A DNA stretch of 64,000 nucleotides from Lachnospiraceae bacterium. GTDB lineage: Bacteria; Bacillota; Clostridia; Lachnospirales; Lachnospiraceae. The stretch lies in contig JAAUZV010000012.1 of the NCBI GenBank assembly GCA_014804425.1, forward strand, positions 44,826-108,825, in the 5' to 3' direction. The notes beneath the pieces were generated by a model. The model saw only the letters and a program-made list of their open reading frames with translations. It had not been told where the DNA came from and ran no database searches. The position numbers and the translations under genes are program-made. Shown piece by piece: positions 14,366 through 32,574 of this stretch (the stretch's first letter is position 1; every line of letters starts with the position of its first letter).

Positions 14366-14400
14366 GTTCCCTTGAAAGTCTTCAAGGGAACTCTTTTATT
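14366..14400 (+). terminator. Intrinsic terminator after the Rpn gene
   Basis: A 10-bp perfect stem GTTCCCTTGA/TCAAGGGAAC (14366-14391) followed by TCTTTTATTT. The 60-bp block around it (14345-14404) is about 90% identical to the block after the recombinase gene at 32395-32454. Confidence 0.85.
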
Positions 14401-14464
14401 TATGTATGGATCCTTTTGCAGTGCGCTTTTTACACATTGCAAGGTTCGGGTAATCCTTTCAGGC

Positions 14465-16928: not shown

Positions 16929-17395
16929 TTCTTCGACTCCTTATGTGTATCATTGTTTATTGCTTTACCATTAATCTTTTTAGCCGGAACGCCTGCATAT
17001 ACACATCCTTTTTCCGTGCTGGTTAGGACGACAGAACCCGCTCCTATAATGGTATTCTGTTTAAGCACGATTCCACCAAAAAGGCAGCTATTTCCATATA
17101 TCACGCACCCTCGCTGTATTACAGGGTAATTTTTTCCGGCGCCCCTTCCGATAATGACGTTGGCATGTATAATAACATCTGCATCTATTCTGACACCAGA
17201 ACCAATTACAATGCCGATAGGGTGCGGAAATAGTACGCTTTTATCGATTGTCGCGGCAGAAGAGATATCATTTCCTGTTTTTCTCATTCCGATCCACTGC
17301 AATGCATATGACAATTTTTTCATATGATGTCTATAGAAATAGTTCCCCAATCGATAGTATTTTAGTGTAGCATTAGATCGGTATCTATCATTCAT
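16925..17395 (-). CDS. Serine-acetyltransferase-like hexapeptide (LbH) O-acetyltransferase
   Basis: A left-handed beta-helix acyltransferase of 156 residues, similar to CysE-type enzymes found in glycan clusters. The hexapeptide core runs IDKSVLFPHPIGIVIGSGVR through IIGRGAGKNYPVI and closes with AGSVVLTSTEKGCVYAGVPA. A likely catalytic His lies in FPHPIG. It probably acetylates a sugar of the left-operon glycan using acetyl-CoA. The ATG at 17395 has GGAGG 6 nt upstream. It overlaps the PIG-L gene by 8 nt and the CBS/nucleotidyltransferase gene by 4 nt. Confidence 0.8.
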   Translation of the reverse strand: MNDRYRSNATLKYYRLGNYFYRHHMKKLSYALQWIGMRKTGNDISSAATIDKSVLFPHPIGIVIGSGVRIDADVIIHANVIIGRGAGKNYPVIQRGCVIYGNSCLFGGIVLKQNTIIGAGSVVLTSTEKGCVYAGVPAKKINGKAINNDTHKESKK

Positions 17396-19220
17396 GATAT
17401 GCCTCCAATTCGGTAAAGCCAATTCTCTTCCCACAACGCTCAAGGATTTTTATTTTTAATGAATTCGTCCTAATACCTAATTTTACGTCACAATAGGGAA
17501 CGTCCCCGCAAAACAGATCAAAAGTCTGTCTGTATTGATTATTCGCCGTTATCAGAATCTTTTTTACATACATTTCTCCGCGATTTCTGTAAAAACGTAA
17601 AACGCCGATATCTACGGATTCAGAAAAAAGGATGGAAATTTCTTTGTTCCGGTCCGATTCGTTCGGGATCCATTCGCCGTCGTTAAACTCATACGGTGCA
17701 GTATTCAGCTTTTTCACGTCGGTAAGCATGAAATCATTCAAAAAGTCGGCATTTCCGGAAGATGCCGTAATTTTAGCGCCTAGCATCAGATTATCCGTTC
17801 TTCTTTGCCAGAAAACGCAGTCTTTCTTGATAAAGCAAGGGATATTTCGATACATTCTTCTATACATGATCAGCGCGCAAATTGCCGGATTATGATAAAC
17901 GTTTCTATTTAATAATTCCTTATCGGTTTTAATTCGAATCCGGTCGTTCCAACATAGACAGGGATTTTCTAATTCCGTCATATATTGCATAGGGTAGTAA
18001 GCGTCTTTTCGGGAGGGCTTATGTGTATACGGTAACCGGCGTCTAAAGAAATCAGGTTTTTGGTATGCACCAGTACTATAGACAAATCCCTTGTAAACGA
18101 CGGGACGGTAATCATTGTTTTTCTTTAATAACGTTCCCATAGCTTCTTCAAACAGTAAAGAGTATGCCGTATGATCAGGATGTTTATCAAAATCATTTGT
18201 GATAATGAATTCGGGTAAAATACTTGAAATAACGTCACAGATATCAATAATGACGTTTTCTCTTGTATATGCAGCAGGTTTGCCTGTTTTCAGAGTGCGC
18301 CAGTCTTTGATGTAACGGGATCCATACGTATGCGTATTCCCGTTTATTGATGTCGACACGGTATCTGCAACGTTATAAATATGCTGCTGCTTCCACTTTG
18401 TACTATACCCCAGGCAAAAAATGCGCTCCCTTTTTACGCCCAGATAACCTAGGACATGCAAGGCCTCTTTGTGCCGTTCTACGGCATAATCTATTCCTTT
18501 TGTATCATTGTTGCAATAAAAGCAAATATAGACCCGCACATGATCTAGAACGGCTTTCCTTATCATATTGCATGTCAAGAATACCTCATCGTCTCCGTGC
18601 GGAACCATGATTAATAACTTGGTATCCTTTTCACATAAGGCTTTTACCACCAGATGGAATTCTTTTTTGCAGACAATGTTTCCGTTTAGCCTCATCTGCG
18701 CGGTTAAGGACACGGCGTTATCTTTTGTGCCCCTTGTCACGATATTTCCGCAAATATGCTTTTTGTCGCTGCTCAACCATACTATGTCTATTCCATAGGA
18801 AGATTTTTTCATGAGAGTGAGATCGCTGATCACGTTTTTTCTGTCTTTATTTGCCCCAAGAATTTTTTGATATGTAATTTCATCAAGGCTTGATTGAATC
18901 CGCTCATTTAACGTCAGCGCCTTATAGCCAAAACATAATGGGATCGTTAACTGAAACTTCATTATCTCATCAGAAAAATATGATTTTCCGACTGAAAGTG
19001 TGGCAATAAAATGAATCTTTTTGATATCTGCCGCATTATGATTAAAATGAATTTTTCCACGATCATCAATCAGAGCGGGGGTTTTGGATTTCCAAGTAAT
19101 ATAAATTCCGTTTCTGAATACAGGTAGCTTATAGTCGCAAGATATCGTTTTCCCCAGACTAAAAAGAATCAGCCAGATTGCTGTGGACATCATTTTGCAA
19201 TAACTTTTTATTTTGCGCAC
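17388..19220 (-). CDS. PIG-L/LmbE-family deacetylase with C-terminal discoidin-like domain
   Basis: A 610-residue protein. The middle (about 200-400) is a PIG-L zinc deacetylase: IMVPHGDDEVF (the PHxDD metal motif) and the third ligand in FDKHPDHTAYS. Such enzymes remove N-acetyl from GlcNAc-type sugars. The N-terminal 200 residues are beta-rich after a hydrophobic stretch (STAIWLILFSLGKTIS) that could be a weak signal or anchor. The C-terminal 130 residues (ITASSGNADF through RIGFTELEAYHE) look like an F5/8-type C sugar-binding domain. It starts at GTG 19220, 8 nt after GGAGG. It probably deacetylates an amino sugar in the left-operon glycan. Confidence 0.8.
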   Translation of the reverse strand: MRKIKSYCKMMSTAIWLILFSLGKTISCDYKLPVFRNGIYITWKSKTPALIDDRGKIHFNHNAADIKKIHFIATLSVGKSYFSDEIMKFQLTIPLCFGYKALTLNERIQSSLDEITYQKILGANKDRKNVISDLTLMKKSSYGIDIVWLSSDKKHICGNIVTRGTKDNAVSLTAQMRLNGNIVCKKEFHLVVKALCEKDTKLLIMVPHGDDEVFLTCNMIRKAVLDHVRVYICFYCNNDTKGIDYAVERHKEALHVLGYLGVKRERIFCLGYSTKWKQQHIYNVADTVSTSINGNTHTYGSRYIKDWRTLKTGKPAAYTRENVIIDICDVISSILPEFIITNDFDKHPDHTAYSLLFEEAMGTLLKKNNDYRPVVYKGFVYSTGAYQKPDFFRRRLPYTHKPSRKDAYYPMQYMTELENPCLCWNDRIRIKTDKELLNRNVYHNPAICALIMYRRMYRNIPCFIKKDCVFWQRRTDNLMLGAKITASSGNADFLNDFMLTDVKKLNTAPYEFNDGEWIPNESDRNKEISILFSESVDIGVLRFYRNRGEMYVKKILITANNQYRQTFDLFCGDVPYCDVKLGIRTNSLKIKILERCGKRIGFTELEAYHE

Positions 19221-19223
19221 GTA

Positions 19224-19931
19224 CTAATCCTCCAACAAAAAAATCGTATCGCCTTCCAATAAACCATATTTATTTCTACCGCTATTTTTATAACTGATTC
19301 TTTTTACTTTCATTCCGCTCAATTTTTCCAGCCGCTCTTTTACATCCCTTCCGTAAAACCTCTTATAAACAGACTGACCTATATGCTTTCCGGATGGAAA
19401 GATCATTGTTTGATCTAAACCGATTCCAATCGGAACGGAAAGAATCATTTTTCCGTTTGGTTTTAATACCCGCTTCATTTCGCGGATTGCCTGTTCGTCA
19501 TCCACATATTGTAAGACGTAATTGCAGATAATCCAATCAAAACTGGCATTCTTAAAACAGATATTTTCGATATCTACAATACGATCGGCCCGTCCCTTCA
19601 GGATGTCACCTGAAATATATTTGCATCTAGGATTCTTTTTTATTTTATCGCGTATTCCGCTTTCAGGCGCAAAATGGAGTATTGCCAGTTTTTGCTCATA
19701 AATGGGCGTATACTTTTGAATGCAGAGATCCATAAAACGGGTACGGTCTTTATTTCCGCACACAGGGCAGATGACATGATCACGATATCCGCCGCCAATC
19801 ACCTTTGCCTGTTCAAAAAACTCTTCTTTGCCGCCATCAGGCTTCATGTGATTCACCCATGAATCACATATATTGCAATAATATCTGATACCGAAATACT
19901 TCATCTTTTTTACGGTCTTATCGAATTTCAT
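19224..19931 (-). CDS. SAM-dependent methyltransferase with N-terminal zinc ribbon
   Basis: A 235-residue class I methyltransferase. It opens with paired cysteines YYCNICDSW and ICPVCGNKDRTR, a zinc ribbon common in glycan-cluster methylases. The SAM-dependent domain follows: LHFAPESGI in place of the usual glycine loop, CKYISGDI, then ASFDWIICNYVLQYVDDEQA and MKRVLKPNGKMILSVPI. The late motifs are canonical, so it is probably active. It is predicted to O-methylate a sugar or the attached glycan. It sits in line with the left glycan operon, with 13 nt to the preceding gene. Confidence 0.8.
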   Translation of the reverse strand: MKFDKTVKKMKYFGIRYYCNICDSWVNHMKPDGGKEEFFEQAKVIGGGYRDHVICPVCGNKDRTRFMDLCIQKYTPIYEQKLAILHFAPESGIRDKIKKNPRCKYISGDILKGRADRIVDIENICFKNASFDWIICNYVLQYVDDEQAIREMKRVLKPNGKMILSVPIGIGLDQTMIFPSGKHIGQSVYKRFYGRDVKERLEKLSGMKVKRISYKNSGRNKYGLLEGDTIFLLED

Positions 19932-19944
19932 AATATCCCCTTAT

Positions 19945-20979
19945 CTAACAATTTTCAAAATCGTCTAACATTGTATAAATTATTGTTTGTATTTTCTTAG
20001 GACTATTTTGCATAATCTCTTTCAAAATCGGATCCTGCTCCAGTTCGTTTTTGAACTGGGAATAATAATTTCTGCAAAGCGGGGTATGCATATATTTATG
20101 ATAGCTTGCATCTGCCTTTGTTTTGTCACGCCACATGCCGAAATGCAGCCCGTGGTGGGGTCTGAAATTGTGTGATCGCATATCGCTGCAGAATAGGATT
20201 TCTGTTTTGTCATCTGCCTGTTTGGGCAACCGTAAACGAGACTTCTTAATGAGATGGTATAAAAATGTCTCGTCCGAATAAGATGCATAGTATTTCATTA
20301 TTAATTTATATATTTTATTAATAATATGATTCTTATAGTAAACATTGAAAAACTTATCAGCCTGCTTTTTTATGGCGGGATAATAATCACGGGTATTAAC
20401 AAAATGTAAGCCGGTGATACGTTTATGATAGAAAAACTTGTTATATAGCTTATGCAGCTTTGTGATCGGAATAAATAATCCAAGTTGTTTCAGCACTTTT
20501 TGATGTTTACAGATCCATTTGGGCAAAGGTGGCTCACTATATGCTCTGACGATATTGCTGAATACCGACTTTTGGGCGGTCATATGTAATATATGCTGTT
20601 CATGCAGCGGAACATCTTCTTTACATATATAAATATCAATATCCCCAATATAAACATATTGATAATTTTCAAAAACATCATCGTACATTAGCCATCTATA
20701 TGCTTTCATCACCGGACGGGGAAGCGTCTGCGCAATCTTATCAACAAGGCACACCCGGTATTTTTCTCCGTACCCGGGAATTAATTTCAACAGCTTTAAT
20801 GTTTCTTTTCGCAATTTTCTGTCAACATAAACAATTGCATCGTAATCGGGGTAATGTTTATAAAGCGAATAAAATTGAAATGGGATATAGCCTTGATAAT
20901 CATATCCGAACACGAACGTCGCGATAAGCAATGTTTTTGGGGGAGCTGCATTATAAGATTTCTTCGGGGCACGCATCAT
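19945..20979 (-). CDS. Putative GT-A glycosyltransferase (GT8-like)
   Basis: A 344-residue protein typical of glycan clusters. After a strand LLIATFVFGYDYQGYIPFQF it has DYDAIVYVDRKL and then YQYVYIGDIDIYIC, where the D-I-D is the metal- and nucleotide-sugar-binding DxD of GT8-like enzymes. Histidine-rich segments near the end (RSHNFRPHHGLHFG) fit a late metal ligand. No membrane segment is present. The donor and acceptor cannot be told. AAAGGA precedes the ATG, and it lies 15 nt from the next gene in the operon. Confidence 0.6.
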   Translation of the reverse strand: MMRAPKKSYNAAPPKTLLIATFVFGYDYQGYIPFQFYSLYKHYPDYDAIVYVDRKLRKETLKLLKLIPGYGEKYRVCLVDKIAQTLPRPVMKAYRWLMYDDVFENYQYVYIGDIDIYICKEDVPLHEQHILHMTAQKSVFSNIVRAYSEPPLPKWICKHQKVLKQLGLFIPITKLHKLYNKFFYHKRITGLHFVNTRDYYPAIKKQADKFFNVYYKNHIINKIYKLIMKYYASYSDETFLYHLIKKSRLRLPKQADDKTEILFCSDMRSHNFRPHHGLHFGMWRDKTKADASYHKYMHTPLCRNYYSQFKNELEQDPILKEIMQNSPKKIQTIIYTMLDDFENC

Positions 20980-20994
20980 ATAGAGTCCTTTCTG

Positions 20995-22170
20995 TTAATC
21001 TTTCAAAATGATATTCCATTTTTTTATTACTTTGTCAAAGCAAAACATTTCCGCACGATTCAAGGATGCCTTTCGGTATTTTTGATACAAATCTTCATTC
21101 GTCAGGATTGCCAGCATCGCTTCTCCCAATAAAGTCTCTTCTTCACAGAGTGGAGATTTTTCATTTAATTGATCCATTGGCATATCAGGGGTCAATATTC
21201 CGTATCTGCAGAGCATCATGGTATTGGCTTTGCCCATTCCTTTAGGTTTTCCTACAATTTCTCCGCAGGATCCCGGTGAATCTGTCGTGATGACAGGCGT
21301 CCCGCATCCCATGGCCTCAACCATGGCATTGCTAAATCCTTCCGTTTTAGATGCGATAACATATGCCCGCGCATGGCTAAAATACCATGTTGGCTCATCT
21401 GTAAATCCCAGAAATAGTACATGATCCTGTACAGCACATTTGCGGCATAGATGTTTCAAATAGCGCAGTTGGGGTCCTTTTCCCAGAATAATCAGCGTTG
21501 CGTCAGGTTCTTTTTGATGCGCATAAGAAAACGCCCGGATAATTCGTTCCTGCTGTTTTATAAAGAAAAGTCTGCCTGCGCATATTAGGACTTTATCCCC
21601 GTATTCCCATTCTCTGCCGTCGTTTACGTTCGTTATCCCATTTGATATATTGGGGATCTTGATCAGGCGGGAACCCGGAATCCCATATCGGGACCTCATT
21701 TCATGATACCCATCATCACTGAGAACAATTACTTTATCTGCTTTCTTATAAAAAAAGCTTACTATATTTTTTTTATAATAAAAACTTTTGGGATATAAAG
21801 TTTCATATGCCGATAACGTATGACATACTCTTGTTATAACGAGTTCGCGCCCTTTTGATAAAACATTCAGATAGTTTGCATCTTCCATAAAACTGACCGC
21901 CGCATCAATTTTATACTTAAATTTAAGCACTCTGATTTTTAGGGAAGATAACAGCAGTCTGATCATTTTTTGCGTATGGCTTCGACCTGCGTTCAAATCA
22001 ATATCTGCATATATGATTTTCCCTTTCACCGCATAGTCCTGCGTTATTTGGCGGTTCAATATAAAATAATAAACGGTATCACCCTGATCTACGTAATAAT
22101 TACCGACTATCTGCGCAATCCGTTCTGCGCCACCGCCGGTGAGCGATGATATGATAATTGCTATATTCAT
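20995..22170 (-). CDS. GT4-family glycosyltransferase
   Basis: A GT-B fold transferase of 391 residues. The N-terminal glycine loop is SSLTGGGAERIAQIVG, and the retaining-enzyme donor site carries EGFSNAMVEAMGCGTP (the E-x7-E motif). The linker KVLICAGRLFFIKQQERIIRA is typical of GT4 (RfaB/EpsD-like) enzymes. Cytoplasmic, and probably adds one sugar to the left-operon glycan. It starts 8 nt after the stop of the upstream GT4 gene. Confidence 0.88.
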   Translation of the reverse strand: MNIAIIISSLTGGGAERIAQIVGNYYVDQGDTVYYFILNRQITQDYAVKGKIIYADIDLNAGRSHTQKMIRLLLSSLKIRVLKFKYKIDAAVSFMEDANYLNVLSKGRELVITRVCHTLSAYETLYPKSFYYKKNIVSFFYKKADKVIVLSDDGYHEMRSRYGIPGSRLIKIPNISNGITNVNDGREWEYGDKVLICAGRLFFIKQQERIIRAFSYAHQKEPDATLIILGKGPQLRYLKHLCRKCAVQDHVLFLGFTDEPTWYFSHARAYVIASKTEGFSNAMVEAMGCGTPVITTDSPGSCGEIVGKPKGMGKANTMMLCRYGILTPDMPMDQLNEKSPLCEEETLLGEAMLAILTNEDLYQKYRKASLNRAEMFCFDKVIKKWNIILKD

Positions 22171-22178
22171 TTTAGTGT

Positions 22179-23369
22179 TTACGCCTTCCTATTACGATAT
22201 TCCATACGAATAACCTGCTCATACAATTGCAGCATCTTAGGCACCACATACTGCGGCCGGAGGCGCAGGATTGTTTTGTGCGCCATGGCAGCAACCCGTT
22301 CCAGTTCCGCATCATCCGCATGTAAGACCTTTTCTGCAACGCGCAGCAGATCATCCCCGTTTCCGGGCAGCGACAAGTACCCCGACACATCATCACTGAT
22401 CAATTGATCCAGACTGGAATTCCACGTGCCGATCACCACTTTTCCGTGATACATTGCCTCCTGACAGCTGTTCGGCAGATTGTCCGTCAAAGAGGGCAGT
22501 ACGAGCGCATAAGAGTGTTTTATAACGGGAAGCAGCTTTTCATGTGAAAGATTCCCGAGATAAATGATCCTGTCACGATTCGGCCGCGCTTTATTCCTCA
22601 AAATCTGTAATGTATTTACTCCGTTAAAAAAAGCCGGAATGCCCGCAAAGACAAAATACAATTCCTTATGACTGCTTAACAGTCTGCCTATCATGTCCGC
22701 GATCGTCAATATGCCTTTATTGGTTGACATTCTTCCGAAATAAAAAAGATATTGTTTCCCTTTGAGCTGTTTGTCATATATGGAAGTATCCCACTGATCC
22801 GGCTCGCAGTCTTCCCAGAACGGCGTCTCGATCACATGAATTTTTCTCTGAATGTCTTTCTGCAATTGGTCTGCGACGATATTGCTGGGCGAAATCACCG
22901 CATTCATCCTACGAGCCGCAAGCCGTTCCATTAAAGAAATCACATTGACCTGGTGTTTTGTATGATTAGCGGTAAGCTGTACTTTACAGTAGGAGGACAT
23001 TCTCATAACCGCCGGGATTTTTCCGCTGTGTAAAATTCCGACGCCAAACCATCCGGTATACTGGATCATATCAACGGTTTTTTCCTTACATATTTTAGAA
23101 ATCCTTCGCTGAAGACAATAATCCCTCAAGACGGCATTTACACCATAATGAATCCATGCCCCTTTTCCCGGTATGGAAACGGTTTTAACGGAACATATTT
23201 CTACGCCGTCATAATCCCATAGCCGATTTTCAACATCAGCAGCGACAATAGAAGCGTGGTGTTCTGTCTGTGTATTCAGATACCGACACATTTTATATAA
23301 ATATCTGGGCATGCCGGTAAGTGGTTCTCCATGACTTTCAAATGCTCCGGTAACAAATAAAATATTCAT
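22179..23369 (-). CDS. GT4-family glycosyltransferase
   Basis: A 396-residue GT-B enzyme. Features are NILFVTGAFESHGEPLTGMP at the N-terminus, the inter-domain YLFYFGRMSTNKGILTIADM and the donor-site motif TDNLPNSCQEAMYHGKVV, in which the first acid of the E-x7-E motif is Asp. This variant is common in GT4 enzymes and recurs in the right-operon protein at 45457-46674 (VDNLPNTVLEAMAFGK), suggesting a related donor. GGAGGAATGC precedes the ATG. Confidence 0.88.
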   Translation of the reverse strand: MNILFVTGAFESHGEPLTGMPRYLYKMCRYLNTQTEHHASIVAADVENRLWDYDGVEICSVKTVSIPGKGAWIHYGVNAVLRDYCLQRRISKICKEKTVDMIQYTGWFGVGILHSGKIPAVMRMSSYCKVQLTANHTKHQVNVISLMERLAARRMNAVISPSNIVADQLQKDIQRKIHVIETPFWEDCEPDQWDTSIYDKQLKGKQYLFYFGRMSTNKGILTIADMIGRLLSSHKELYFVFAGIPAFFNGVNTLQILRNKARPNRDRIIYLGNLSHEKLLPVIKHSYALVLPSLTDNLPNSCQEAMYHGKVVIGTWNSSLDQLISDDVSGYLSLPGNGDDLLRVAEKVLHADDAELERVAAMAHKTILRLRPQYVVPKMLQLYEQVIRMEYRNRKA

Positions 23370-23383
23370 GCATTCCTCCGCGT

Positions 23384-24562
23384 TTATTTCTCTATTGAGA
23401 TCAGCTCCTTCAAGGTGTTGATATTTCCCTGATTGTAATGTGCAACAAAACGAACCGCTTCCACGGAAAGTCTCATGGCGGCCTCGTCGTTGTTTACGAT
23501 TTCTACGACCTGTTTCGCAAAGTCCTGTTCATTTTTTGCCACGATCAATGCGTCTTTCTGCGCAAGGATTCCTCTTGCGCCTTTTGGCGTCGTGACAAGC
23601 GGTTTCGCATATGCCAGCGCCTCTATCGTTTTGATATTTAATCCCGTTCCCTGCGTCGTCGGGTTGACGATCACTCTGGAAATTTGATAAATTTCTTCTA
23701 CGTCAGCAACAACCCCTAACTTTTTGTACCGGCTGCTGTCGGGTATTTCTTTACAGACAGTTCCTGCGATCAGGAATTGAATCTCCGGATCAAGACGAAG
23801 GATCGTCGGCAAGATTTTTTGAATAAACCATTCACATGCCAGAACGTTCATTCGATAGGAGGAGCCAAGGAAAGAGATATTTTTATTCTTTACGAAATAG
23901 GGCTCGGCGGTCTCAATGCTGTCCCCGATCGTGAATACCCTTTTTTGCGCATTTGTCAGTCGCCTAAAATAGTGTTCTTCTTCTTTTTGGATCGCGATGA
24001 TCACATCCGCCCGCTCCAGCGCCCGTTTTTCTTCTTTCTCACTGATATAAAAAAACGGGAGAGAAGAGTGTGGGTCCAAAAACAGTTTATGACGGTCGGC
24101 CATCTTATCGTGCGTATCAATTATTTTTACGACATGATCAGGAAGCTGCAAAAATATCGGGGAATAAAACAGATATTCGCACATCACGGCATCCACATGT
24201 ATTTTTTTCGCCAGCGCACTGACATATTCCGCGAGACCGGCCGGATATAAATCATCTGCCAAATATTTGATGATTATTTTTTTATCCAATCTTAGAAATT
24301 TCAAAGTTTTCCGCAGATAGCCGCAAAATAAAATGCGGGGATTTATTTTGTGCTTCGCTTGATTGTATACAAACAGTCCTTTTCCGAACAGCCGTTTCAT
24401 GGGCATGATGTTCTCTTTGCTGCCTGGCGCAACCCATAGATAAGATACCTCTACTCCCTGTGTCCGAAAATTGTTTATCAAATTCAGGATACGTCTTTTA
24501 CTGCCGCTGATCGTCGGAAACAGATTGATTCCTGAAACGATTAAAATAGACTTCATTTTCAT
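23384..24562 (-). CDS. GT4-family glycosyltransferase
   Basis: A 392-residue GT-B enzyme with ILIVSGINLFPTISGSKRRI at the start, a conserved NISFLGSSYRMNVLACEWFI donor-domain entry and the motif GTGLNIKTIEALAYAKPLV, an E-x7-E variant seen in GT4 enzymes that begin by binding a long acceptor. Cytoplasmic, with no membrane helix. Two in-frame ATGs lie 6 nt apart, both behind AAAGGC; the first is used here. It belongs to the left glycan operon. Confidence 0.87.
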   Translation of the reverse strand: MKMKSILIVSGINLFPTISGSKRRILNLINNFRTQGVEVSYLWVAPGSKENIMPMKRLFGKGLFVYNQAKHKINPRILFCGYLRKTLKFLRLDKKIIIKYLADDLYPAGLAEYVSALAKKIHVDAVMCEYLFYSPIFLQLPDHVVKIIDTHDKMADRHKLFLDPHSSLPFFYISEKEEKRALERADVIIAIQKEEEHYFRRLTNAQKRVFTIGDSIETAEPYFVKNKNISFLGSSYRMNVLACEWFIQKILPTILRLDPEIQFLIAGTVCKEIPDSSRYKKLGVVADVEEIYQISRVIVNPTTQGTGLNIKTIEALAYAKPLVTTPKGARGILAQKDALIVAKNEQDFAKQVVEIVNNDEAAMRLSVEAVRFVAHYNQGNINTLKELISIEK

Positions 24563-24581
24563 GCTGCCTTTCTAAAGGTTT

Positions 24582-25871
24582 TCAAACATTCTCTGTAATT
24601 GCGCTATAATACCGTTCCTTCGGATTGTCCTCTCCATACAGAAACCGCCTGACCTTTCGCAGCTGTTCCATATATGCGTCAGGATCATTTTGCATATTCT
24701 TTAACAGCGCATCCATACCTTGCCTGCTGTCTGCTTTCCCCCATGAGATGCCTTTGCAGACGTCCCCATCCACATCTTCGTCCCTGATATACCGGAATGC
24801 CGGAATACCGCAATAAACGGCATCACCAAATGTTGTGCTGTTGCCGCATAAAAGAAAATCTACATCCTCGAATAATTCATTTAACCGTGTTCGGTTATCA
24901 TAGGTTTTTTTACAATAGTTCGGATTAACGCAGGACGTATAATTTGTCACTTTATCTGATGGATGTACTTTCAAAATGTAAGTAGCGTTATATTTATCAG
25001 CCAGAAAATCTGCAATTTCGATCAAAGATTTATTTTTCTGCCAATCTTTTTTTGTTAATACAATGGCAAGACAAACGATAAATCGACTAATCTGAATGTG
25101 TTTTTTGTCCACATATATGGGTGATGTACTTTTGACAAGTGTATTAATGTTGCCAACCAGTATGATCCTGTTTTCAGCGATACCGCATTGTACTGCAGTT
25201 TGTTTGGAGTATTCTCCCCACAGCAATAAATATCTTGCATTAGAGCATTTGTAATCAATATAATCATATGTACCGTTTACAATCCCGTGCTCGAGTGTGT
25301 ACGTGGTGTAGGATTTCTGATTACATTTTTGAACTAAAATACTGTCGATTTCTAATACATCGAAAAAGAATATCAGCTTCCTGACAGAGGGATAGCGTTT
25401 AATGATCTGAAACATTTCTTCTGCATACGCCGCAGACCGGCACAATCGCCGGCACAGCCCGTTTTTTATGTAATCAGGGCATGCCAAATGTTTCATTTGC
25501 ATACGCCAGATTGGGAGCAGCAAAATGTACGGATTCCATTTTGGTCTAGCTGTCCGGTTCTCGCTTGCAGTGATCACAACCTTATTCTGAAACAGGCTTT
25601 CAACTGCTTGAAACTGCGTCAAATGATCTTTTCTGCTTAGGTGGGAGTGTGAATAGAGAAACGCGCATTCAGGATTCTCCCCCCGCTTCTTTATGGAAAA
25701 GCTCTCTGTCATGCACAGCCCGATATTACGAACGCTTTCCTTTGTCCATTTAGAAACATGCCACAATGCGGTAGACAGAACATCCCCCACCTTGATTCCT
25801 TCTAAACCCACAAACGAGATCTTGTTCAATTGACTGATAAGCTTTTGCTTTCTTTTCGGCTCAAGTTCCAT
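24582..25871 (-). CDS. Putative GT-B surface-glycan transferase (capsule-transferase-like)
   Basis: About 430 residues. The C-terminal half carries the YILKVHPSDK and DFLLCGNSTTFGDAVYCGIP pair found in capsule and CDP-glycerol-type GT-B transferases, and the middle has TLEHGIVNGTYDY. A protein of similar style, with VKLHPSE and TSSTTLIEATAF, is encoded in the right operon at 43998-45419, so each operon carries one. The substrate is unknown. A TTG at 25898 with AAGGAGA upstream is an alternative start; I used the ATG at 25871. Confidence 0.65.
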   Translation of the reverse strand: MELEPKRKQKLISQLNKISFVGLEGIKVGDVLSTALWHVSKWTKESVRNIGLCMTESFSIKKRGENPECAFLYSHSHLSRKDHLTQFQAVESLFQNKVVITASENRTARPKWNPYILLLPIWRMQMKHLACPDYIKNGLCRRLCRSAAYAEEMFQIIKRYPSVRKLIFFFDVLEIDSILVQKCNQKSYTTYTLEHGIVNGTYDYIDYKCSNARYLLLWGEYSKQTAVQCGIAENRIILVGNINTLVKSTSPIYVDKKHIQISRFIVCLAIVLTKKDWQKNKSLIEIADFLADKYNATYILKVHPSDKVTNYTSCVNPNYCKKTYDNRTRLNELFEDVDFLLCGNSTTFGDAVYCGIPAFRYIRDEDVDGDVCKGISWGKADSRQGMDALLKNMQNDPDAYMEQLRKVRRFLYGEDNPKERYYSAITENV

Positions 25872-25930
25872 GCTCTTTATTACCTCATGATGCGTCAAAA
25901 TTTTCTGCCGTCTCCTTGATTTCCAAGAGC

Positions 25931-27004
25931 TTAGTGAAAGAACGGCTTAAGCACCTTTACAAAATGCTCTAATTCATAAATGCTCAGATCATTCAGCATA
26001 TCCGGATTGTTTTTCCGATATTCTTCAATCAGGTTCGGAATCTGACGAATATTTGTATATCCGATTCCCTTGATCCGATTATTCTCCAAAATTTCTATCG
26101 GAGCGATTGGGATACAGCCGACGAATATGCCGTCCAATAACACTCCGCTTGTTCTGTTCCCATATATTTTGGTATTGTAATTTACGACAACAAATTTAGA
26201 CTCTGCCAACAATCTCCAATAGTCATCATCCTGTAAATAACAATCGGTAACGTTTACTTTACCACTTCTATTAATGTGGGCTACTTGCGACGGCGTCAGA
26301 CAATTATCCCGTATTCTTCCCTTGACCACCAGCGGAATTCCGATATTATTCTTACAAAACAGCTTAATCACGCTCGTCACATTTTTCCCGGGAGTGATCA
26401 GCCCAACGGAAGCCACCCGGTCTGATTTGGGTACCTCATATAATTTCTTTTCCGCCTCTGTTCTAAAATAATCCGGCAGATAGACCGATTTCTTACCCTG
26501 CGTACAAGTCGGATTTGTTGTAATACATAAATCCAGCCGGTTTACCCCCTTTTTTATTTGCCGTTTCCTGTGTTTGCCCAAATACTCCGCATCACGCAAG
26601 TACCAATCCCAATTCATATAGGTTGTAGCGATCAGCTTTCTCTTCATCGGCAAAACTGCCAGCATACTTAAAATAATTTCATTTACGAAAATATACCAGA
26701 CATATTTTCCTCTTGCGCGAAAATAGGTGAAAAGGTAATTTGTCGTCAGTTGTATCTTCATTCCTAATGCAGCTTCAACATTCGCCTTATCCGTTACATG
26801 GCAGGGCAGATATTGCTTGTTCTTACAGCAAATATCTTTTAATGTTTCCCTGCCTGCGATCACTTCTATTTTTTCCGGCGGATAACCGAGATGAAGCAGA
26901 ATCTGTATGGTCTGCTCAATTTGCTTTTTCAGATGTCCTATCGTATTTCCGTTTTTATCTAACAAATTATTCAGACATATAATACTGACTTCCAAATCCG
27001 GCAT
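25931..27004 (-). CDS. Putative GT-B glycosyltransferase, divergent
   Basis: A 357-residue protein that resembles GT4 enzymes only in outline. The donor domain shows DRVASVGLITPGKNVTSVIK and IPLVVKGRI, then YNTKIYGNRTSGVLLDGIFV, where the usual E-x7-E is not obvious. There is no transmembrane segment. I infer a glycosyltransferase because of its fold-like strands and its position within a run of glycosyltransferase genes. The ATG at 27004 follows GGAGGGAAGAAC. A gap of about 95 nt with no gene separates it from the upstream gene. Confidence 0.55.
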   Translation of the reverse strand: MPDLEVSIICLNNLLDKNGNTIGHLKKQIEQTIQILLHLGYPPEKIEVIAGRETLKDICCKNKQYLPCHVTDKANVEAALGMKIQLTTNYLFTYFRARGKYVWYIFVNEIILSMLAVLPMKRKLIATTYMNWDWYLRDAEYLGKHRKRQIKKGVNRLDLCITTNPTCTQGKKSVYLPDYFRTEAEKKLYEVPKSDRVASVGLITPGKNVTSVIKLFCKNNIGIPLVVKGRIRDNCLTPSQVAHINRSGKVNVTDCYLQDDDYWRLLAESKFVVVNYNTKIYGNRTSGVLLDGIFVGCIPIAPIEILENNRIKGIGYTNIRQIPNLIEEYRKNNPDMLNDLSIYELEHFVKVLKPFFH

Positions 27005-27098
27005 GTTCTTCCCTCCCGCACAGAAGTGTGCCACCCTGTCACATCAATCATCGGATTTTCTGATTTTTCACTTATCAAAAAGCATATTTTCCCTTATC

Positions 27099-28259
27099 TC
27101 ATGATAATCCCTTAAGGATCCTGCAAAATATTTCCGCCGCCCGCCGCCATGTAAATTTCATTGCAAACCGATAGTTCTTTTCCATAAAATCAGTATCCGC
27201 CGCCTGCCTGTCTGTTTCCATGAGTCCTTCGCAAATGCTTTTTGGAGAAAATGGATCTGCCAGTATCGCGTGCCCCTCACCGATCTCTTTCATGGAAGAG
27301 CAGTCAGATGTCACCACCGGAATTCTGCTCGCCATCGCCTCTATGACCGGTATGCCGAATCCCTCATATTCGGAAACGAACAGCAGTGCCTTTGCGTTTT
27401 TGTATAACGCGAGCTTTTCTTCATCCGTGATATAGCCCAAAAACAGTACCTTTTCCCTTAATCGCTGATCAGCATCCACATACTTTTTCAGATTACTGTA
27501 TTCATGACTCTTGCTTCCGGCGATGTAAAAGTAAACATCTTCTTTTCCGGTTTCCTTGAGGTATTTTTCAAAGCCCTTTATGGCATTCAGCAGATTTTTA
27601 TTCTTGCGCATTGCACCGATATAAAGATAGTAGTTTCGTGAAAAATCAATGCCGGATTCCGGCACAAAATGCCTGGTAATGTCAAAAACCGGACTGTCTT
27701 TCAGAAAACATTCATCAAGTCCGTTATAAATGACCTTTATCCGCTCGGGACGGATATGTAAATAATGGATAATATCCATCTTTGTTGTCTTCGAAACAGT
27801 CAGAATGATGTCTGCCTTTTTTGCTGACGCAAACATCTTTTGATGTTTCTGCAGGTCTTCTTTGGTGTAATATTGCGGGTAGCGCATGGACATCATATCG
27901 TGGATCCATGCAATCCGTTTGTATGGCAGAAGATGCCGGTACCACGGAAACGACTCAAAACAGGTCGGATAATATCCCTGTGCCAGCTCTACCGGGGGAG
28001 CACCCCATGCTTCCGGCCAGATAAACCGGCGCTCATAAACAAGATGCTGCTTGATCCATGCATTCTTTTTCGGTATGAGATATTTTCTGACAGAAATATC
28101 ATTTTTTCTGACTGAAATGACAAAGGGAATCCCCTGGTCATGGAGGGCTTTCGACAACTGCTCCTGACAATATCCGACGCCCGTCTTGTTTTCAGCAAAC
28201 ATAAGGGAAAACCCTGTGACCAATATCGGTTTTTGGTTCCTTTTAGCTGATTCCACCAT
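27099..28259 (-). CDS. GT4-family glycosyltransferase (mannosyltransferase-like)
   Basis: A 386-residue GT-B enzyme with clear GT4 signatures: ENKTGVGYCQEQLSKALHDQ near the start, the H-D pair in IAWIHDMMSMRYPQYY, the inter-domain YLYIGAMRKNKNLLNAI and the donor motif SEYEGFGIPVIEAMASRIPV. Very similar motifs (YEGFGMPVVEAW, IHDVIPALF) occur in the right-operon gene at 35850-37166, so these are probably paralogues adding similar sugars in the two programmes. The ATG at 28259 follows GAGG and overlaps the upstream gene by 17 nt. Confidence 0.9.
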   Translation of the reverse strand: MVESAKRNQKPILVTGFSLMFAENKTGVGYCQEQLSKALHDQGIPFVISVRKNDISVRKYLIPKKNAWIKQHLVYERRFIWPEAWGAPPVELAQGYYPTCFESFPWYRHLLPYKRIAWIHDMMSMRYPQYYTKEDLQKHQKMFASAKKADIILTVSKTTKMDIIHYLHIRPERIKVIYNGLDECFLKDSPVFDITRHFVPESGIDFSRNYYLYIGAMRKNKNLLNAIKGFEKYLKETGKEDVYFYIAGSKSHEYSNLKKYVDADQRLREKVLFLGYITDEEKLALYKNAKALLFVSEYEGFGIPVIEAMASRIPVVTSDCSSMKEIGEGHAILADPFSPKSICEGLMETDRQAADTDFMEKNYRFAMKFTWRRAAEIFCRILKGLS

Positions 28260-29325
28260 CAATTACCTCGTCAAACTGATCGAATGATTTCTTCCATGTA
28301 AATTTGCGGACACATCGCATTCCGGCATATGCCATGCGGATTCTTTGGTCTGATTCTGACAGCAGTTTGATTACTGCGCCGGCAAGTGCTTCCGTGTCCT
28401 TCACGTTCCTGACAAGCGCTGTCTGTCCGTCCATGGCAAAATCCCTGATCCCGCCGTTATCCGTCGTCACAACAGCGCACCCGCACGCCATTGCTTCCAT
28501 AGGGGGCAGCCCCCATCCTTCACAAGTGCTTGTGCATAGAAATACAGATGAACGGTTATAGATTTCTTTTACCAGTACTTCCTGCTTGGGGTTTTCATAA
28601 TATTCCATCCACTTTGGTATGCTGCCCGTTCTCCTGTCAACGCCGAACAGTTTTACTTTCAGCTCCGGAATCTGCTCCCTGACCTTTTTTAAGACTGCCA
28701 GCCCGGTCTTGGAATCCTTAAAGTTACTGTCATGGCTGTAGAGCATGCTGACCGTGCAATCCCTGTCCTCTATATCCCGGTATACCCGGAACTTGTGGCA
28801 GTTAATTGCATTAGGGATATAAGTCATCCTGCTGCAGTTCATCTTCCTGCCAATATCTAACAGCCACTTGGATATGACGATCTTTTCCATGTCGTAATGC
28901 CACGTTTCATCGACATCCTGTTTCCTTCCGCTCCAAGTCTCATAATGTTGGATAAGATATACTTTTTTTCCGGCATGCCGGAGCGTATCTAATACTACTG
29001 CCGTTTTCCACATCGTTGCGATTGTCACATCCGCATCCGGAATCGTCCGGCGATTGAGATCAAATACATATCTGCAATGCACCGCCTTGTGAAAGCGAAA
29101 CCAGTTCTTCTCTCCCGACGCCAGTTTTAGAAGATCGCGCGCGTACTGTACGATGTGTTCCGGCTTTTTCTGAAAATCGCTGCATACCTCATGGATGACC
29201 GTTACACGGTACCCGTTAGCGGCAAGATGGTTTGCATAAATATACGCAATCTTAAAACCGCCTACCGGGCGCAGGCCGAAATTCGGCAACAATATATTAA
29301 CTCGCCTTTGCTTTTGGTCAGCCAT
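28243..29325 (-). CDS. GT4-family glycosyltransferase
   Basis: A 360-residue GT-B enzyme. The N-terminus NILLPNFGLRPVGGFKIAYI carries the glycine loop, the middle has YLIQHYETWSG (typical of rhamnosyl- and related transferases), and the donor motif is CEGWGLPPMEAMACGCAVV. GGAG precedes the ATG at 29325. Its stop overlaps the start of the following GT4 gene, so both are translated together within the left operon. Confidence 0.88.
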   Translation of the reverse strand: MADQKQRRVNILLPNFGLRPVGGFKIAYIYANHLAANGYRVTVIHEVCSDFQKKPEHIVQYARDLLKLASGEKNWFRFHKAVHCRYVFDLNRRTIPDADVTIATMWKTAVVLDTLRHAGKKVYLIQHYETWSGRKQDVDETWHYDMEKIVISKWLLDIGRKMNCSRMTYIPNAINCHKFRVYRDIEDRDCTVSMLYSHDSNFKDSKTGLAVLKKVREQIPELKVKLFGVDRRTGSIPKWMEYYENPKQEVLVKEIYNRSSVFLCTSTCEGWGLPPMEAMACGCAVVTTDNGGIRDFAMDGQTALVRNVKDTEALAGAVIKLLSESDQRIRMAYAGMRCVRKFTWKKSFDQFDEVIDGGIS

Positions 29326-29370
29326 AGCTACTCCAATCCCATCCTGCGGAATATAAAATAAACCCCATTC

Positions 29371-30372
29371 CTACCACTCCAGCCCCATTCCGCGGAACAT
29401 AAAATACAGATAAAATCCGTTATTATGTACGACTGCATCCCGAATGCGTCTGTCCTTATCTATCACCCGGATCTTCGACTTGTCCGGTACCTGCTTACAG
29501 ACGAAACGGAGCATCCCCGCCTTCTGCCAGATATGATACGGACACTTCTTCTGATTCATATATGTGAACACGTTCTGTATCCAATCCATCAGCCGCAGAT
29601 AATAGCAGTCCTTCTGATAACGCTCCACATCCAGCTTTTCCAGAAGCTTCCATTCCCGCTTCATGTTCGTGACCATACTCGCGATCAGGTTGACATTGAA
29701 CTTTCCTGTCGTACTATGTTCTTCCCGCTGAATCCAGTAATAATAAATTCTGGGATTCAGGACAATGCAGGAGGCATTCTCATAACAGCCATAATTAAAC
29801 CATGCATCCTCCTGGCCGAACTTCATACACTCCGGGAAACGGATCTGATGCCCCATCACCATGCTTCTGCGATATAACCCGCTCCAGACCGCGACATAAC
29901 TTGCGACAAGCGCGAAGTACTCCTTTGCGATCCCTTCCCCTTTCAGCACGGCAAATTTCGTCAGGCGGTCCGAGGTCTTGATCTGCCGCCCGTTTTCCTT
30001 GTACGCGATCTTCAGCCGCTTGAACCTTATCACATCCGCGTCATATTCTTTTGCAAGTGCATAATTATCCCGGATGAGATCCGGAAGATATTTATCGTCA
30101 TTGTCGCAGAACGCCAGATACTCTCCGCACGCTGCCCTTACCCCCGCATTCCTTGCAGAGGATATCCCCCCGTTGCTTTTATGGATCACGCGGACCCGCC
30201 CATCTCGTTTGGCGTAGTCATCACAAATACCGGCACAGCCATCCGTCGAACCGTCATCCACCAATATCAGTTCAAAATTTTTGTGCGTCTGTGCGAGCAC
30301 GCTTTCGATCGCGGACGGCAAATGCTCTCTGGAGTTGTAGACCGGCATGATCACGGAAACATCTGGCTGCAT
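29371..30372 (-). CDS. GT2-family glycosyltransferase
   Basis: An inverting GT-A enzyme of 333 residues. It begins DVSVIMPVYNSREHLPSAIE, has the nucleotide-binding LVDDGSTDGCAGICDDYAKR, the G-G-ISSARNAG segment, and FCDNDDKY as the DxD site. Several ATGs lie upstream in frame, but AGAGGAGGG is placed for the last one (30372), which directly precedes the conserved domain. It is the second gene of the left operon after licD, with a gap of about 115 nt. Confidence 0.9.
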   Translation of the reverse strand: MQPDVSVIMPVYNSREHLPSAIESVLAQTHKNFELILVDDGSTDGCAGICDDYAKRDGRVRVIHKSNGGISSARNAGVRAACGEYLAFCDNDDKYLPDLIRDNYALAKEYDADVIRFKRLKIAYKENGRQIKTSDRLTKFAVLKGEGIAKEYFALVASYVAVWSGLYRRSMVMGHQIRFPECMKFGQEDAWFNYGCYENASCIVLNPRIYYYWIQREEHSTTGKFNVNLIASMVTNMKREWKLLEKLDVERYQKDCYYLRLMDWIQNVFTYMNQKKCPYHIWQKAGMLRFVCKQVPDKSKIRVIDKDRRIRDAVVHNNGFYLYFMFRGMGLEW

Positions 30373-30486
30373 TCCCATCCCTCCTCTGTCACATTGCATG
30401 GGATTCTCTGATCCTGTTCTGCATGGCATTGATTGTGCCCGACAATAAAATCCATTTGAAAAGCCCTTCGGTTGCATCGGCAGGTC

Positions 30487-31278
30487 TTACCGATACCACG
30501 CCTTTGCCATATGATCGTTATGCCGCTTCGATGCAGGCGGCGGTGTCATATAATCGCCGTATAAATGTCTCAGGTAACGGTCATACCCCAACGGCGCCGC
30601 AAATTTTCTTCCTTCAAACATAAGCGTCACTGTCTGCACAAGTTCCTTTTTGGGCATAATCTCTTTCAGGTGATAACCCATGACCGAGCAGCCCGCATAC
30701 CTTGGTGATGCCGTGTACTGCCTCTTTGCACGGTGTTCCAGTATCCGCGAGACTGCGCGCATGCATCCGCGGTTCCAGGCGATAAGGAGGCGGTTCTTCT
30801 CATCCGCCGTGCTGATGTTGTAATGCCGCTGAAAATGTTCCCGCAGTCTCTTTTGTATATGATAATGACGGACTACTGCCTGTTTATCATCCGGAAGATC
30901 ATCCAACGGGAATAGGTCTACGCAGACCCCGTCTGAGGAAAATGGGATGCAGCCGCTCTGCCGCAGATAAGTCCTCGTATCGACCACCTTTGCGAACGGG
31001 TAGTAATATTCCCTGTCGTTATGTATGCAGAGTGCGCGATATGGACTTTGGTCTGCATTGACAAGCCGGATCAATTTTTCATAATCTTTACGCAACAGCA
31101 TCATATCGGCATCATCATCCCAGGGGATAAAGCCGCCATGCCGAACGGCTCCAAGCAGCGTCCCACCGGACAACATACAGTTCAGATCATGCTTTTTTGA
31201 CAGTTCGTCCAAATACACCATGATGTCAAAAATGATCTTTCGGTATTCTTCAGCGGTACTGATCGGCTTCATTTTCAT
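30487..31278 (-). CDS. licD: LicD-family phosphotransferase, first gene of the left glycan operon
   Basis: LicD proteins transfer phosphocholine or a similar phospho-group from a nucleotide carrier to sugars. Here CMLSGGTLLGAVRHGGFIPW and the metal-binding WDDDADMMLLRKDYEKL are unmistakable, followed by FPLDDLPDD; 263 residues is normal. No choline-uptake or CTP:phosphocholine genes are seen nearby. The ATG at 31278 (a second lies at 31272) follows AAAGG. The gene begins only 32 nt from the left inverted repeat of the invertible element, so in the present orientation it faces the recombinase's upstream region and has no visible promoter. The symbol is a family name. Confidence 0.88.
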   Translation of the reverse strand: MKMKPISTAEEYRKIIFDIMVYLDELSKKHDLNCMLSGGTLLGAVRHGGFIPWDDDADMMLLRKDYEKLIRLVNADQSPYRALCIHNDREYYYPFAKVVDTRTYLRQSGCIPFSSDGVCVDLFPLDDLPDDKQAVVRHYHIQKRLREHFQRHYNISTADEKNRLLIAWNRGCMRAVSRILEHRAKRQYTASPRYAGCSVMGYHLKEIMPKKELVQTVTLMFEGRKFAAPLGYDRYLRHLYGDYMTPPPASKRHNDHMAKAWYR

Positions 31279-31310: not shown

Positions 31311-31340
31311 ATTTTTCCTAAAGTTATTATCTTTAGGAAA
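31311..31340. repeat. Left inverted repeat / recombination site
   Basis: A 30-bp sequence whose exact reverse complement is at 32545-32574 (30 of 30). Internally it is arm TTTCCTAAAG, spacer TTATTAT, inverted arm CTTTAGGAAA. That is the two-arm, 7-bp-spacer shape used by tyrosine recombinases. The spacer is not self-complementary and so gives the site a direction. Confidence 0.95.
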
Positions 31341-31437
31341 ATTCCGAAATGGCAATTTTGAACAGGCTCCGATATACTGCTCATAAGTCAAGCGCCCCAA
31401 GGATCGGGAATAAAATTGAATTTGGAGGTTACATAGG

Positions 31438-32400
31438 ATGAATCAAATGACACTGGAAGAATGGATGATTTTATGGTTGGAGGATCACAGACCGTTTATC
31501 AAAGAATCAACTTACGGAAACTACTCGACGATTATTCATAACTACATCATTCCGCAGCTTGGAAAAAAACGGTTGTGGGAATTGGATGAGCAATGTTTAC
31601 AGGAATTTACACTTTATCTGCTCTCAGACGGGAGCAAGCGGCACAGTGGCGGCCTTTCAGAAAAAACGGTACATGATGTTTGGAATGTGCTAAAAGAATC
31701 ACTTCGCAAGGCGCATCGACAGAAGAAGATTGACAGCTCCGATTTTAAGGTATCTTTCCCGTCATCTCGCACCAAGAAAAACGTAACGGTGTTATCGGAT
31801 CATGATTTTGATTTGTTGTCGGAATATCTTTTCCGCCATAGTGATTCCCGAAATTTGGGAATATTGCTCGCACTGTATACAGGTATGCGGATTGGCGAGA
31901 TTTGCGCCTTAAAATGGGAAAATATTAATTTGGAGGAACGTTTGATTCATGTTCAATATACTTTGCAGCGCATATATATTAAAAATCAAAACAATCAGAA
32001 TGTTTCTTATGTTACGATGACATCCCCCAAATCTCTTGCCTCTATCCGAAGTATTCCGCTCACCATGAACTTAGCAGAGTATTTGAGTTGTTACTATAAA
32101 CGAAACAGGATTTGTGCGGATGATTACCTGCTAACCTGTTCTTCGCAGTATATCGAACCGAGAAGCTATGAGAATTATTATAAGAAGATTCTAAAACACG
32201 TCGGCATTTCGGCTATCCGCTTTCATGCACTCCGGCACACTTTTGCGACACGCCTGATCGCGCATGGTGCGGATTATAAGATTGTCAGTGAGCTTCTCGG
32301 TCATCGATCCGTTACAACGACACTACATTTGTATGTTCATCCGCAGCTTACACAAAAAAGGAGATGCGTGGAGCTGTTGGCAAATTCTGAAAGAGTATGA
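31438..32400 (+). CDS. Tyrosine recombinase (site-specific DNA invertase)
   Basis: A 320-residue phage-integrase-family recombinase. The N-terminal SAM-like DNA-binding domain (TLEEWMILWLEDHRPFIKES) is followed by the catalytic domain with Arg in LYTGMRIGEICALKW, the H-x-x-R box in RFHALRHTFATRLIAHGADY, His in LLGHRSVTTT and the nucleophile Tyr in LHLYVHPQL. All catalytic residues are present. It lies wholly inside the inverted repeats that it presumably recombines, like self-contained phase-variation switches. GGAGG lies 12 nt before the ATG. Only a weak promoter (TTGAAC about 80 nt upstream) is seen. A strong terminator follows, isolating it from the outward promoter. Confidence 0.95.
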   Translation: MNQMTLEEWMILWLEDHRPFIKESTYGNYSTIIHNYIIPQLGKKRLWELDEQCLQEFTLYLLSDGSKRHSGGLSEKTVHDVWNVLKESLRKAHRQKKIDSSDFKVSFPSSRTKKNVTVLSDHDFDLLSEYLFRHSDSRNLGILLALYTGMRIGEICALKWENINLEERLIHVQYTLQRIYIKNQNNQNVSYVTMTSPKSLASIRSIPLTMNLAEYLSCYYKRNRICADDYLLTCSSQYIEPRSYENYYKKILKHVGISAIRFHALRHTFATRLIAHGADYKIVSELLGHRSVTTTLHLYVHPQLTQKRRCVELLANSERV

Positions 32401-32415
32401 TTGTTGCGTTTCGGA

Positions 32416-32450
32416 GTTCCCTTGAAGGTTCTCAAGGGAACTTTTTTATT
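32416..32450 (+). terminator. Intrinsic terminator after the recombinase gene
   Basis: Perfect 10-bp stem GTTCCCTTGA/TCAAGGGAAC (32416-32441), 6-nt loop, then six T residues. It stops recombinase transcription before the invertible promoter, so glycan expression would depend on that promoter alone. It lies in a 60-bp block repeated after the Rpn gene. Confidence 0.9.
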
Positions 32451-32492
32451 TATGGAATTTAATGGTGATTCTCAAAAAACATGAAAAAATAT

Positions 32493-32519
32493 TAAAAAGC
32501 GAGTGAAAGTAGTCGATAT
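32493..32519 (+). promoter_or_regulatory. Sigma-28 (SigD/FliA)-type promoter inside the invertible element
   Basis: TAAA (32493-32496), 15-nt spacer, GTCGATAT (32512-32519), against the flagellar consensus TAAA-N15-GCCGATAT. Spacing and 11 of 12 fixed bases agree. The flgM promoter at 62144-62170 has the same deviation (GTCGATAA). It points out of the element through the right repeat into the right glycan operon. Confidence 0.75.
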
Positions 32520-32531
32520 ATGATGTATAAT
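32503..32531 (+). promoter_or_regulatory. Overlapping sigma-A-like promoter inside the invertible element
   Basis: GTGAAA (32503-32508), 17-nt spacer, perfect TATAAT (32526-32531). It overlaps the sigma-28 elements and points the same way, so basal vegetative expression may exist alongside flagellar control. The -35 is only four of six. Confidence 0.55.
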
Positions 32532-32544
32532 GTGTAAAGAGTCA

Positions 32545-32574
32545 TTTCCTAAAGATAATAACTTTAGGAAAAAT
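32545..32574. repeat. Right inverted repeat / recombination site
   Basis: Exact reverse complement of 31311-31340, with spacer ATAATAA in the opposite sense. It is transcribed in the leader of the right operon, where the arms could form a 10-bp hairpin with a 7-nt loop. Confidence 0.95.

Follow-up and report, generated by a model that had tools for sequence, protein, structure and literature searches.

The window, by which we mean the whole stretch of 64,000 nucleotides analyzed here, comes from a Lachnospiraceae bacterium and contains a segment of 1.26 kb placed between two large sets of sugar genes. The segment is bounded by an inverted repeat of 30 nt, whose arms (31311–31340, + strand, and 32545–32574, − strand) are 100% complementary and lie 1204 nt apart. 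The second-longest inverted pair in the same 3 kb has 21 nt at 76%. Each arm is a near-palindrome of the form TTTCCTAAAG-N7-CTTTAGGAAA, with TTATTAT as the central seven nucleotides, and the right arm is the same site in the other orientation. This form is as would be expected for a recombination site with two half-sites and a 7-bp spacer. Since the spacer TTATTAT is asymmetric, the site has a direction. A search of the 3.4-Mb genome, allowing up to two mismatches, finds the core of the site in two places only, which are the two arms.

The arms enclose an uninterrupted gene for a tyrosine recombinase of 320 amino acids (31438–32400, +), with matches to Phage_integrase (PF00589, E 1.7e-29) and to PF14659; none of the NCBIfam models compared with it scores above its cut-off. 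Its motifs TGMR, HALRH, LGH and LY are what we take to be the R-HxxR-H-Y pattern. This recombinase family is very large (5065 proteins at E 1e-20 or better), so most relatives are uninformative on this locus. Ten full-length relatives with 74–93% identity are found among the best 120 listed, and a homolog at E 1e-70 is present in only 6 of 397 evenly drawn genomes of the bacterial family, the window's own included.

A terminator-like stem-loop is found 3' of the recombinase (32413–32444, +). Over 60 nt, this stretch shares 90% identity with the right end of a PDDEXK_2 transposase element that is multicopy; it has the appearance of a remnant of this element. A PDDEXK_2 transposase element with hairpin-like ends is also present elsewhere in the window (13117–14404). 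We have compared five genomes of the genus, the window's own included, with one consensus assembly per species: all five contain pieces that match this element, 9 to 21 per genome. No Rfam family matches the window at gathering scores, so there is no listed riboswitch in the leader.

Two long divergent operons flank the segment. Operon A (14529–31278, −), with 14 genes, faces the recombinase side of the element in the window. It encodes LicD, glycosyltransferases, a methyltransferase, a PIG-L deacetylase, a hexapeptide transferase and a citrate-lyase-ligase-like protein. Operon B (32596–56601, +), with 24 genes, faces the promoter side. Its first gene is polysialyltransferase-like, and the others include genes for glycosyltransferases, sugar aminotransferases (DegT/PseC-like), GFO/IDH/MocA dehydrogenases, hexapeptide transferases and radical SAM proteins. 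The sugar aminotransferases of the operons are similar to PseC/LegC, below the curated cut-offs. Acetyltransferases are also encoded in the two operons, some genes have no family match, and a Maf-like gene is found in neither operon.

The licD gene starts at 31278 (−), 32 nt from the left arm. We have taken the first ATG of operon B at 32596, 21 nt from the right arm; the mechanical list of open reading frames starts this gene at 32530, inside the element. An initial annotation of this DNA had described a tyrosine recombinase with a terminator and an outward promoter inside a perfect 30-bp inverted repeat, whose ends were placed at 32 nt (licD) and 21 nt (right operon) from the neighbouring genes. 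The repeat is indeed exact, the PF00589 match and the stem-loop agree with the description, and both distances are correct with the right start at 32596. Its gene counts, 14 and 24, are also right if 14529–31278 and 32596–56601 are considered as the operons.

According to a crude hydropathy count, the 38 operon proteins have at most two predicted membrane helices each, and no flippase- or polymerase-like multi-spanning protein is found among them. The same count gives proteins with 7–13 helices in three control glycan loci, so it is able to see flippases. At most two helices per protein is as expected for flagellin glycosylation in the cytoplasm: a glycan made wholly in the cytoplasm fits this process, and flagellin glycosylation islands likewise show cytoplasmic assembly with no flippase or polymerase.

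The outward promoter within the segment, TAAA-N15-GTCGATAT (32493–32519, +), is of the sigma-28 (SigD/FliA) type. The consensus for SigD of B. subtilis is TAAA-N13-16-GCCGATAW, as quoted in PMC3865298. The element box matches this consensus with one departure in the −10 box, the same departure that is found in the flgM promoter of its own genome. The latter, TAAA-N15-GTCGATAA (62144–62170, +), is our local comparison promoter. The genome also contains an N15 box before flagellin (L112 12132) and a form of the box with a 16-nt spacer before flaG (L112 7946). All five genus genomes have a sigma-28-type box directly before a flagellin gene, as well as a near-identical copy of the flgM-promoter sequence, with flgM itself identified in the window only.

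Four genus genomes keep the site, and all of them have the element copy of the box. It is identical in the window and in the genomes G002 and G004. The promoter is also conserved in G003, which has no recombinase; in the alignment of the four, the −10 box is GTCGATAT in the first three and TCCGATAT in G003, and TATAAT follows it. The element promoter is predicted to be sigma-28/SigD-dependent. The motif alone is no proof, since the strict sigma-28 pattern also has hits in the reversed controls: 16 genome-wide hits against 6 in the control for the window's own genome (G000, 3.4 Mb), 16 against 7 for G001, 25 against 6 for G002, 14 against 2 for G003 and 19 against 13 for G004. It is position and conservation that carry weight. 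The relaxed box (complete −10, at least three of four −35 positions, N15) has 15 occurrences in the inspected loci, which amount to 473,708 strand-bases; the real boxes are among the 15.

Other promoter-like matches are found in the element. A sigma-70-like match, GTGAAA-N17-TATAAT (32503–32531, +), overlaps the sigma-28-type box and is kept in all four genomes, with ATGAAA instead of GTGAAA as its −35 in G003; dual use of the overlapping boxes is possible. On the 5' side of the recombinase, a weak outward match, TTGCCA-N18-GATAAT (31326–31355, −), is present in the window and in G002, where it could leak outward; its first hexamer is not kept in G004. One more match is found in the leader of the recombinase (31349–31378), and it is partly lost in G004.

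Late flagellar genes follow operon B, as in flagellin glycosylation islands. The window itself includes genes for the anti-sigma-28 factor FlgM (62176–62487, +; PF04316, E 4e-22) and for the flagellar export chaperone FlgN (62568–63089, +; PF05130, E 4e-23). Beyond the window, the same contig encodes FlgK, a Flagellin_N protein (presumably of FlgL type), FliW, FlaG, FliD, flagellin, a PF01973 protein (MptE-like, which we take to be of the Maf family) and a NeuB-family synthase. The full flagellin gene, at contig position 118290, is about 41 kb away from the element, and the flagellin, Maf/MptE-like and NeuB genes lie about 41–46 kb to its right. Similarly, one contig of G002 carries the polysialyltransferase gene, a flgM-type promoter and a flagellin gene. 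In C. difficile, the flagellar glycosylation genes come after those for late flagellar functions, and their expression is strongly reduced in a sigD mutant (PMC3865298, PMC7438776); according to the first of these papers, no SigD promoter of their own was found.

The near-palindromic arms, the sigma-28-type box, the terminator as an apparent transposase remnant and the flagellar neighbourhood are additions to the initial annotation. Because of the sigma-28-type promoter and the flagellar neighbourhood, the likely biology moves from a surface polysaccharide to a flagellin glycan.

The recombinase is present in three of the five genus genomes: the window (100%), G002 (94% identity) and G004 (90%), with no stops. 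None is found in G001 and G003 at E 1e-30. In all three recombinase-bearing genomes, the element borders the same polysialyltransferase operon. The 5' end of the recombinase abuts licD in the window, and abuts the polysialyltransferase gene in G002 (locus L010) and in G004 (locus L011): both recombinase-bearing relatives are inverted with respect to the window. The blast blocks of these loci against the window overlap at the repeat by exactly 30 bp (L010) and 29 bp (L011), so the inversion breakpoints are the repeat itself. The segment is inverted between species. The core sites are perfect, while the adjoining DNA diverges by 7–13% between the genus genomes. A further claim of the initial annotation is supported, namely that the promoter element between the divergent glycan operons is invertible and carries its own recombinase: both orientations are found within the genus.

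In both relatives it is the other operon that the promoter end faces, directly in L011 and on a separate contig (L104) in G002. The G002 locus is split because both contigs end in the transposase element, which appears to sit between the recombinase and the promoter, inside the segment. A near-full copy of this element appears to occupy the terminator stretch in G002, and a deletion derivative is found in G004. One shared gene (window 27099–28262, 68–79% identical DNA in parts) suggests that the left operon of the window is a variant of operon A.

G003 (L105 8599–10120) contains the sigma-28-type promoter and a single site before an operon-A-type cluster, with no recombinase, and the polysialyltransferase gene was not found in this genome. 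This locus looks like a locked one-operon derivative. Site, recombinase and polysialyltransferase were all not found in G001. We should also note a 380 amino acid protein with no Pfam or NCBIfam match, encoded between operon B and flgM (window 57032–58174): its homolog in G003 is directly upstream of the single site, reading towards it.

In order to look for similar elements, we have examined the best 80 of the 219 recombinase relatives from genome contigs. An inverted repeat which encloses the recombinase is among the top three repeats in 17 of the 80 loci. Thirteen of these were examined further; the other four (L060, L061, L082 and L083) were set aside, their enclosing repeats being short, imperfect or remote. 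An outward sigma-28-like box 3' of the recombinase, defined by a complete degenerate −10, at least three of four −35 positions and a spacer of 14–16 nt, is found in five of the 80 loci: L011, L017, L020, L038 and L055. All five are repeat-enclosed and have a palindromic site with a spacer of 7 nt (8 nt in L017). L010 is cut off at a contig end, and the box is present in its other half, L104. The other eight of the thirteen elements examined further have no 3' box, with weak matches inside the gene in L071 and L088, and the sigma-28-like box is absent at L053, L067, L071, L085 and L087. The scan for the box also gave 13-nt inverted pairs in L012, L026 and L075, which were taken as chance. A sigma-28-like match is found on the 5' side in L012 and L080, and on the 3' side in L047, where it reads inward. 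The further family loci L108–L111 only present inverted pairs of 12–14 nt; the homologs in L108, L109 and L111 are near glycan-type genes, with no such repeats. This speaks against a recurrent arrangement, as does the low number of genomes of the bacterial family with a homolog (6 of 397).

The combination of recombinase, palindromic sites with a 7–8-nt spacer and outward sigma-28-like box is found in four distant Clostridia loci (L017, L020, L038 and L055). Each has one −35 mismatch, and the box overlaps or closely follows the recombinase stop. L017 is flanked by operons that diverge from it and include genes for sugar aminotransferase, glycosyltransferase, pyruvyltransferase and cytidylyltransferase functions. 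The other three adjoin operons with ketoacyl-synthase-III-like and short-chain dehydrogenase genes, and the left side of L055 ends at a contig end. In L020, L038 and L055 the operons on both sides are paralogous, and the comparison of orientation by blastn is ambiguous. Flagellins are encoded in all four genomes. In L038 the element is preceded on its contig by a flagellar cluster, with a flagellin gene 30 kb away, followed by LicD-like and NeuB-like genes (the names of the non-flagellin genes there were read from N-terminal sequence). No flagellin is shown near the element in L017, L020 and L055.

A recombinase tree was made with 33 chosen rows: the window, 29 of the 80 loci and 3 further family loci. 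One clade (100/99) is made up of L017, L020, L038 and L055, and another (100/99) of the window, L010 and L011. The tree neither supports nor opposes a single origin of the sigma-28 type. The elements in L020 (7280–11045) and L038 (7983–11061) are enlarged to 3.1–3.8 kb. They have a gene of the AAA-ATPase/PDDEXK_9 type beside the recombinase within the repeats, recognized by Pfam in L020 and by similar DNA in L038.

In our opinion it is quite probable that the element in the window is a self-contained invertible promoter, likely driven by sigma-28, which selects between two operons predicted to glycosylate flagellin. As for recombination, transcription and the target of the glycan, we infer the following. 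The recombinase, probably expressed from its own leader, would act on the arms that enclose it: it would pair the two sites, exchange strands in the 7-bp spacer and invert the segment, and identical arms would be regenerated. RNA polymerase with sigma-28 would then read outward through one arm, into operon B in the orientation of the window and into operon A in the flipped orientation of G002 and G004. The operon beside the 5' side of the recombinase would be mostly silent, and the terminator 3' of the recombinase would keep recombinase transcripts out of the operon. Each cell would build one of two flagellin glycans, only while making flagella, and the population would keep both glycan types. 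Several observations speak against this explanation: the overlapping sigma-70-like match is conserved too, the strict sigma-28 pattern is also found at other places of the genomes, the Maf-like gene belongs to neither operon, the glycosylation genes of C. difficile were found to have no SigD promoter of their own (PMC3865298), recombinase homologs in L108, L109 and L111 lie near apparent glycan genes with no such repeats, and in G002 a transposase element appears to sit inside the segment.

A different promoter and a different target would be required if a housekeeping sigma factor read the invertible promoter, and if the choice were between two non-flagellar surface glycans, such as capsule, teichoic-acid-like polymers or S-layer. 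Proteins of the LicD type also act on surface glycans, teichoic ones included. The overlapping GTGAAA/ATGAAA-N17-TATAAT match, conserved in 4/4 genomes, would agree with this explanation, and so would the Bacteroides capsule loci, which are switched by invertible promoters (PMC12355684). Nevertheless, we consider this explanation unlikely. The TAAA-N15-NYCGATAW box is kept in four genus genomes and recurs, with one −35 mismatch, in the distant elements L017, L020, L038 and L055. A flagellar cluster is found next door. The 38 genes include no flippase- or polymerase-like multi-spanning protein, which the helix count does detect in the control loci, so the capsule or teichoic-acid reading is ranked second.

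It is still less probable that the segment is a relic, inverted during the divergence of the species and now fixed in each lineage with no live switch. Such a relic would agree with the orientations, which are known from one consensus assembly per species, and with G003, where the promoter and one site are kept without recombinase. On the other hand, the recombinase frame is open throughout in the three genomes that bear it (100, 94 and 90% identity, no stops), the core sites have remained perfect next to DNA that diverges by 7–13%, and the promoter is intact in both orientations. Finally, a mobile element (integrase cassette or transposon-like) inserted by chance between the operons, with the repeats as its ends, is hardly credible: the recombinase gene is bounded by repeats, and a transposase element and its remnants are found at the same spot in relatives, but we have rejected a mobile cassette because the sites are unique to this locus of the genome, the same polysialyltransferase operon is bordered in all three recombinase-bearing genomes, and the recurrence of similar site architecture and promoter type at unrelated loci fits a function at the locus.

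Several known systems may be compared with the selector of flagellin glycans that we propose. The fljBA promoter of Salmonella is sigma-28 dependent. As in the window, the Hin/fljBA system has a recombinase gene and an outward flagellar promoter in a segment bounded by inverted sites, and the type of flagellar surface depends on the orientation of this segment (PMC9368917, PMC3535392 and PMC5903667). In the window, the class of the promoter is read from the sequence. The enzymes are different: Hin is a serine recombinase (PMC11868660), while that of the window is a tyrosine recombinase of the Phage_integrase family and not a member of the Hin family. In Salmonella, the target is one promoter-driven operon, which encodes one flagellin together with the repressor of the other. 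In the window two long divergent operons flank the element, they encode glycan enzymes and no flagellin gene would be switched: the predicted choice is one of glycan instead of flagellin. We class the element as Hin-like in layout, with an enzyme of another family and a two-way choice of modification operons.

The RecV switches of C. difficile (flg, cwpV) are also found in Clostridia, with a tyrosine recombinase and flagellar phase variation by inversion. In contrast to the window, the flg switch is a 154-bp segment without a recombinase gene, acts after transcription initiation, and turns flagella on or off with no two-way choice (PMC5386303). In Bacteroides, invertible promoters control surface glycan loci (PMC12355684). 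In B. fragilis, at least thirteen regions are served by one master serine recombinase, Mpi (PMC5903667), and the available portions of these two sources describe no flagellar promoter or enclosed recombinase for the capsule promoters. The fimbrial segment of Providencia stuartii is a putative invertible segment of 844 bp which encloses a recombinase ORF. It has 14-bp imperfect repeats in a fimbrial locus, and neither a two-operon choice nor a sigma-28 promoter is described in the part seen of the source (PMC5903667).

The initial annotation had considered the layout as new, which is too broad: Hin, the Providencia stuartii segment and several Bacteroidales loci also enclose a recombinase. As for the function we propose, none of the open-licence PMC papers among the matches listed describes flagellin glycosylation under the control of an invertible promoter.

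We lean towards considering the element as one case of a convergent counterpart of Hin: a reusable tyrosine-recombinase cassette with its own sigma-28 promoter and palindromic sites with 7–8-bp spacers, placed between divergent operons, which toggles a sugar or another modification of flagellin in flagellated Clostridia, so that the coat would be switched without changing the flagellin protein. For host immunity, antibodies and phages that bind the flagellum, flagellin is one of the main targets, and many members of the Lachnospiraceae are gut commensals with flagella. If this explanation is true, these bacteria would gain antigenic variation from a self-contained choice between two flagellar glycans, coupled to the transcription of flagellar genes. 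Salmonella offers the classical case of such variation, in the protein itself; here it would be obtained with an unrelated enzyme. The signature may be scanned for in metagenomes: palindromic repeats with 7–8-bp spacers around a tyrosine recombinase and an outward TAAA-N15-NYCGATAT. Both orientations of the element may be counted directly from reads, and the G003 locus L105 offers natural material for a locked comparison.

Homologous recombinases inside perfect inverted repeats are also found in Bacteroidales: L046 (9880–11209), L088 (5642–7089) and L021 (9889–11201). L046 and L088 are flanked on both sides by genes that we call SusC-like from their length and N-terminal sequence, and the contig of L021 ends at the right arm. 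Unlike the window, these SusC/SusD loci have no sigma-28-like box 3' of the recombinase, and they concern nutrient receptors, not glycan synthesis. The elements in L046 and L088 are possible two-way selectors of nutrient receptors. Recombinase homologs of Chryseobacterium (L022, L065, L074, L078 and similar loci) are also found beside inverted repeats, which in our view resemble conserved regions of hsdS; presumably, these loci are type I restriction shufflons.
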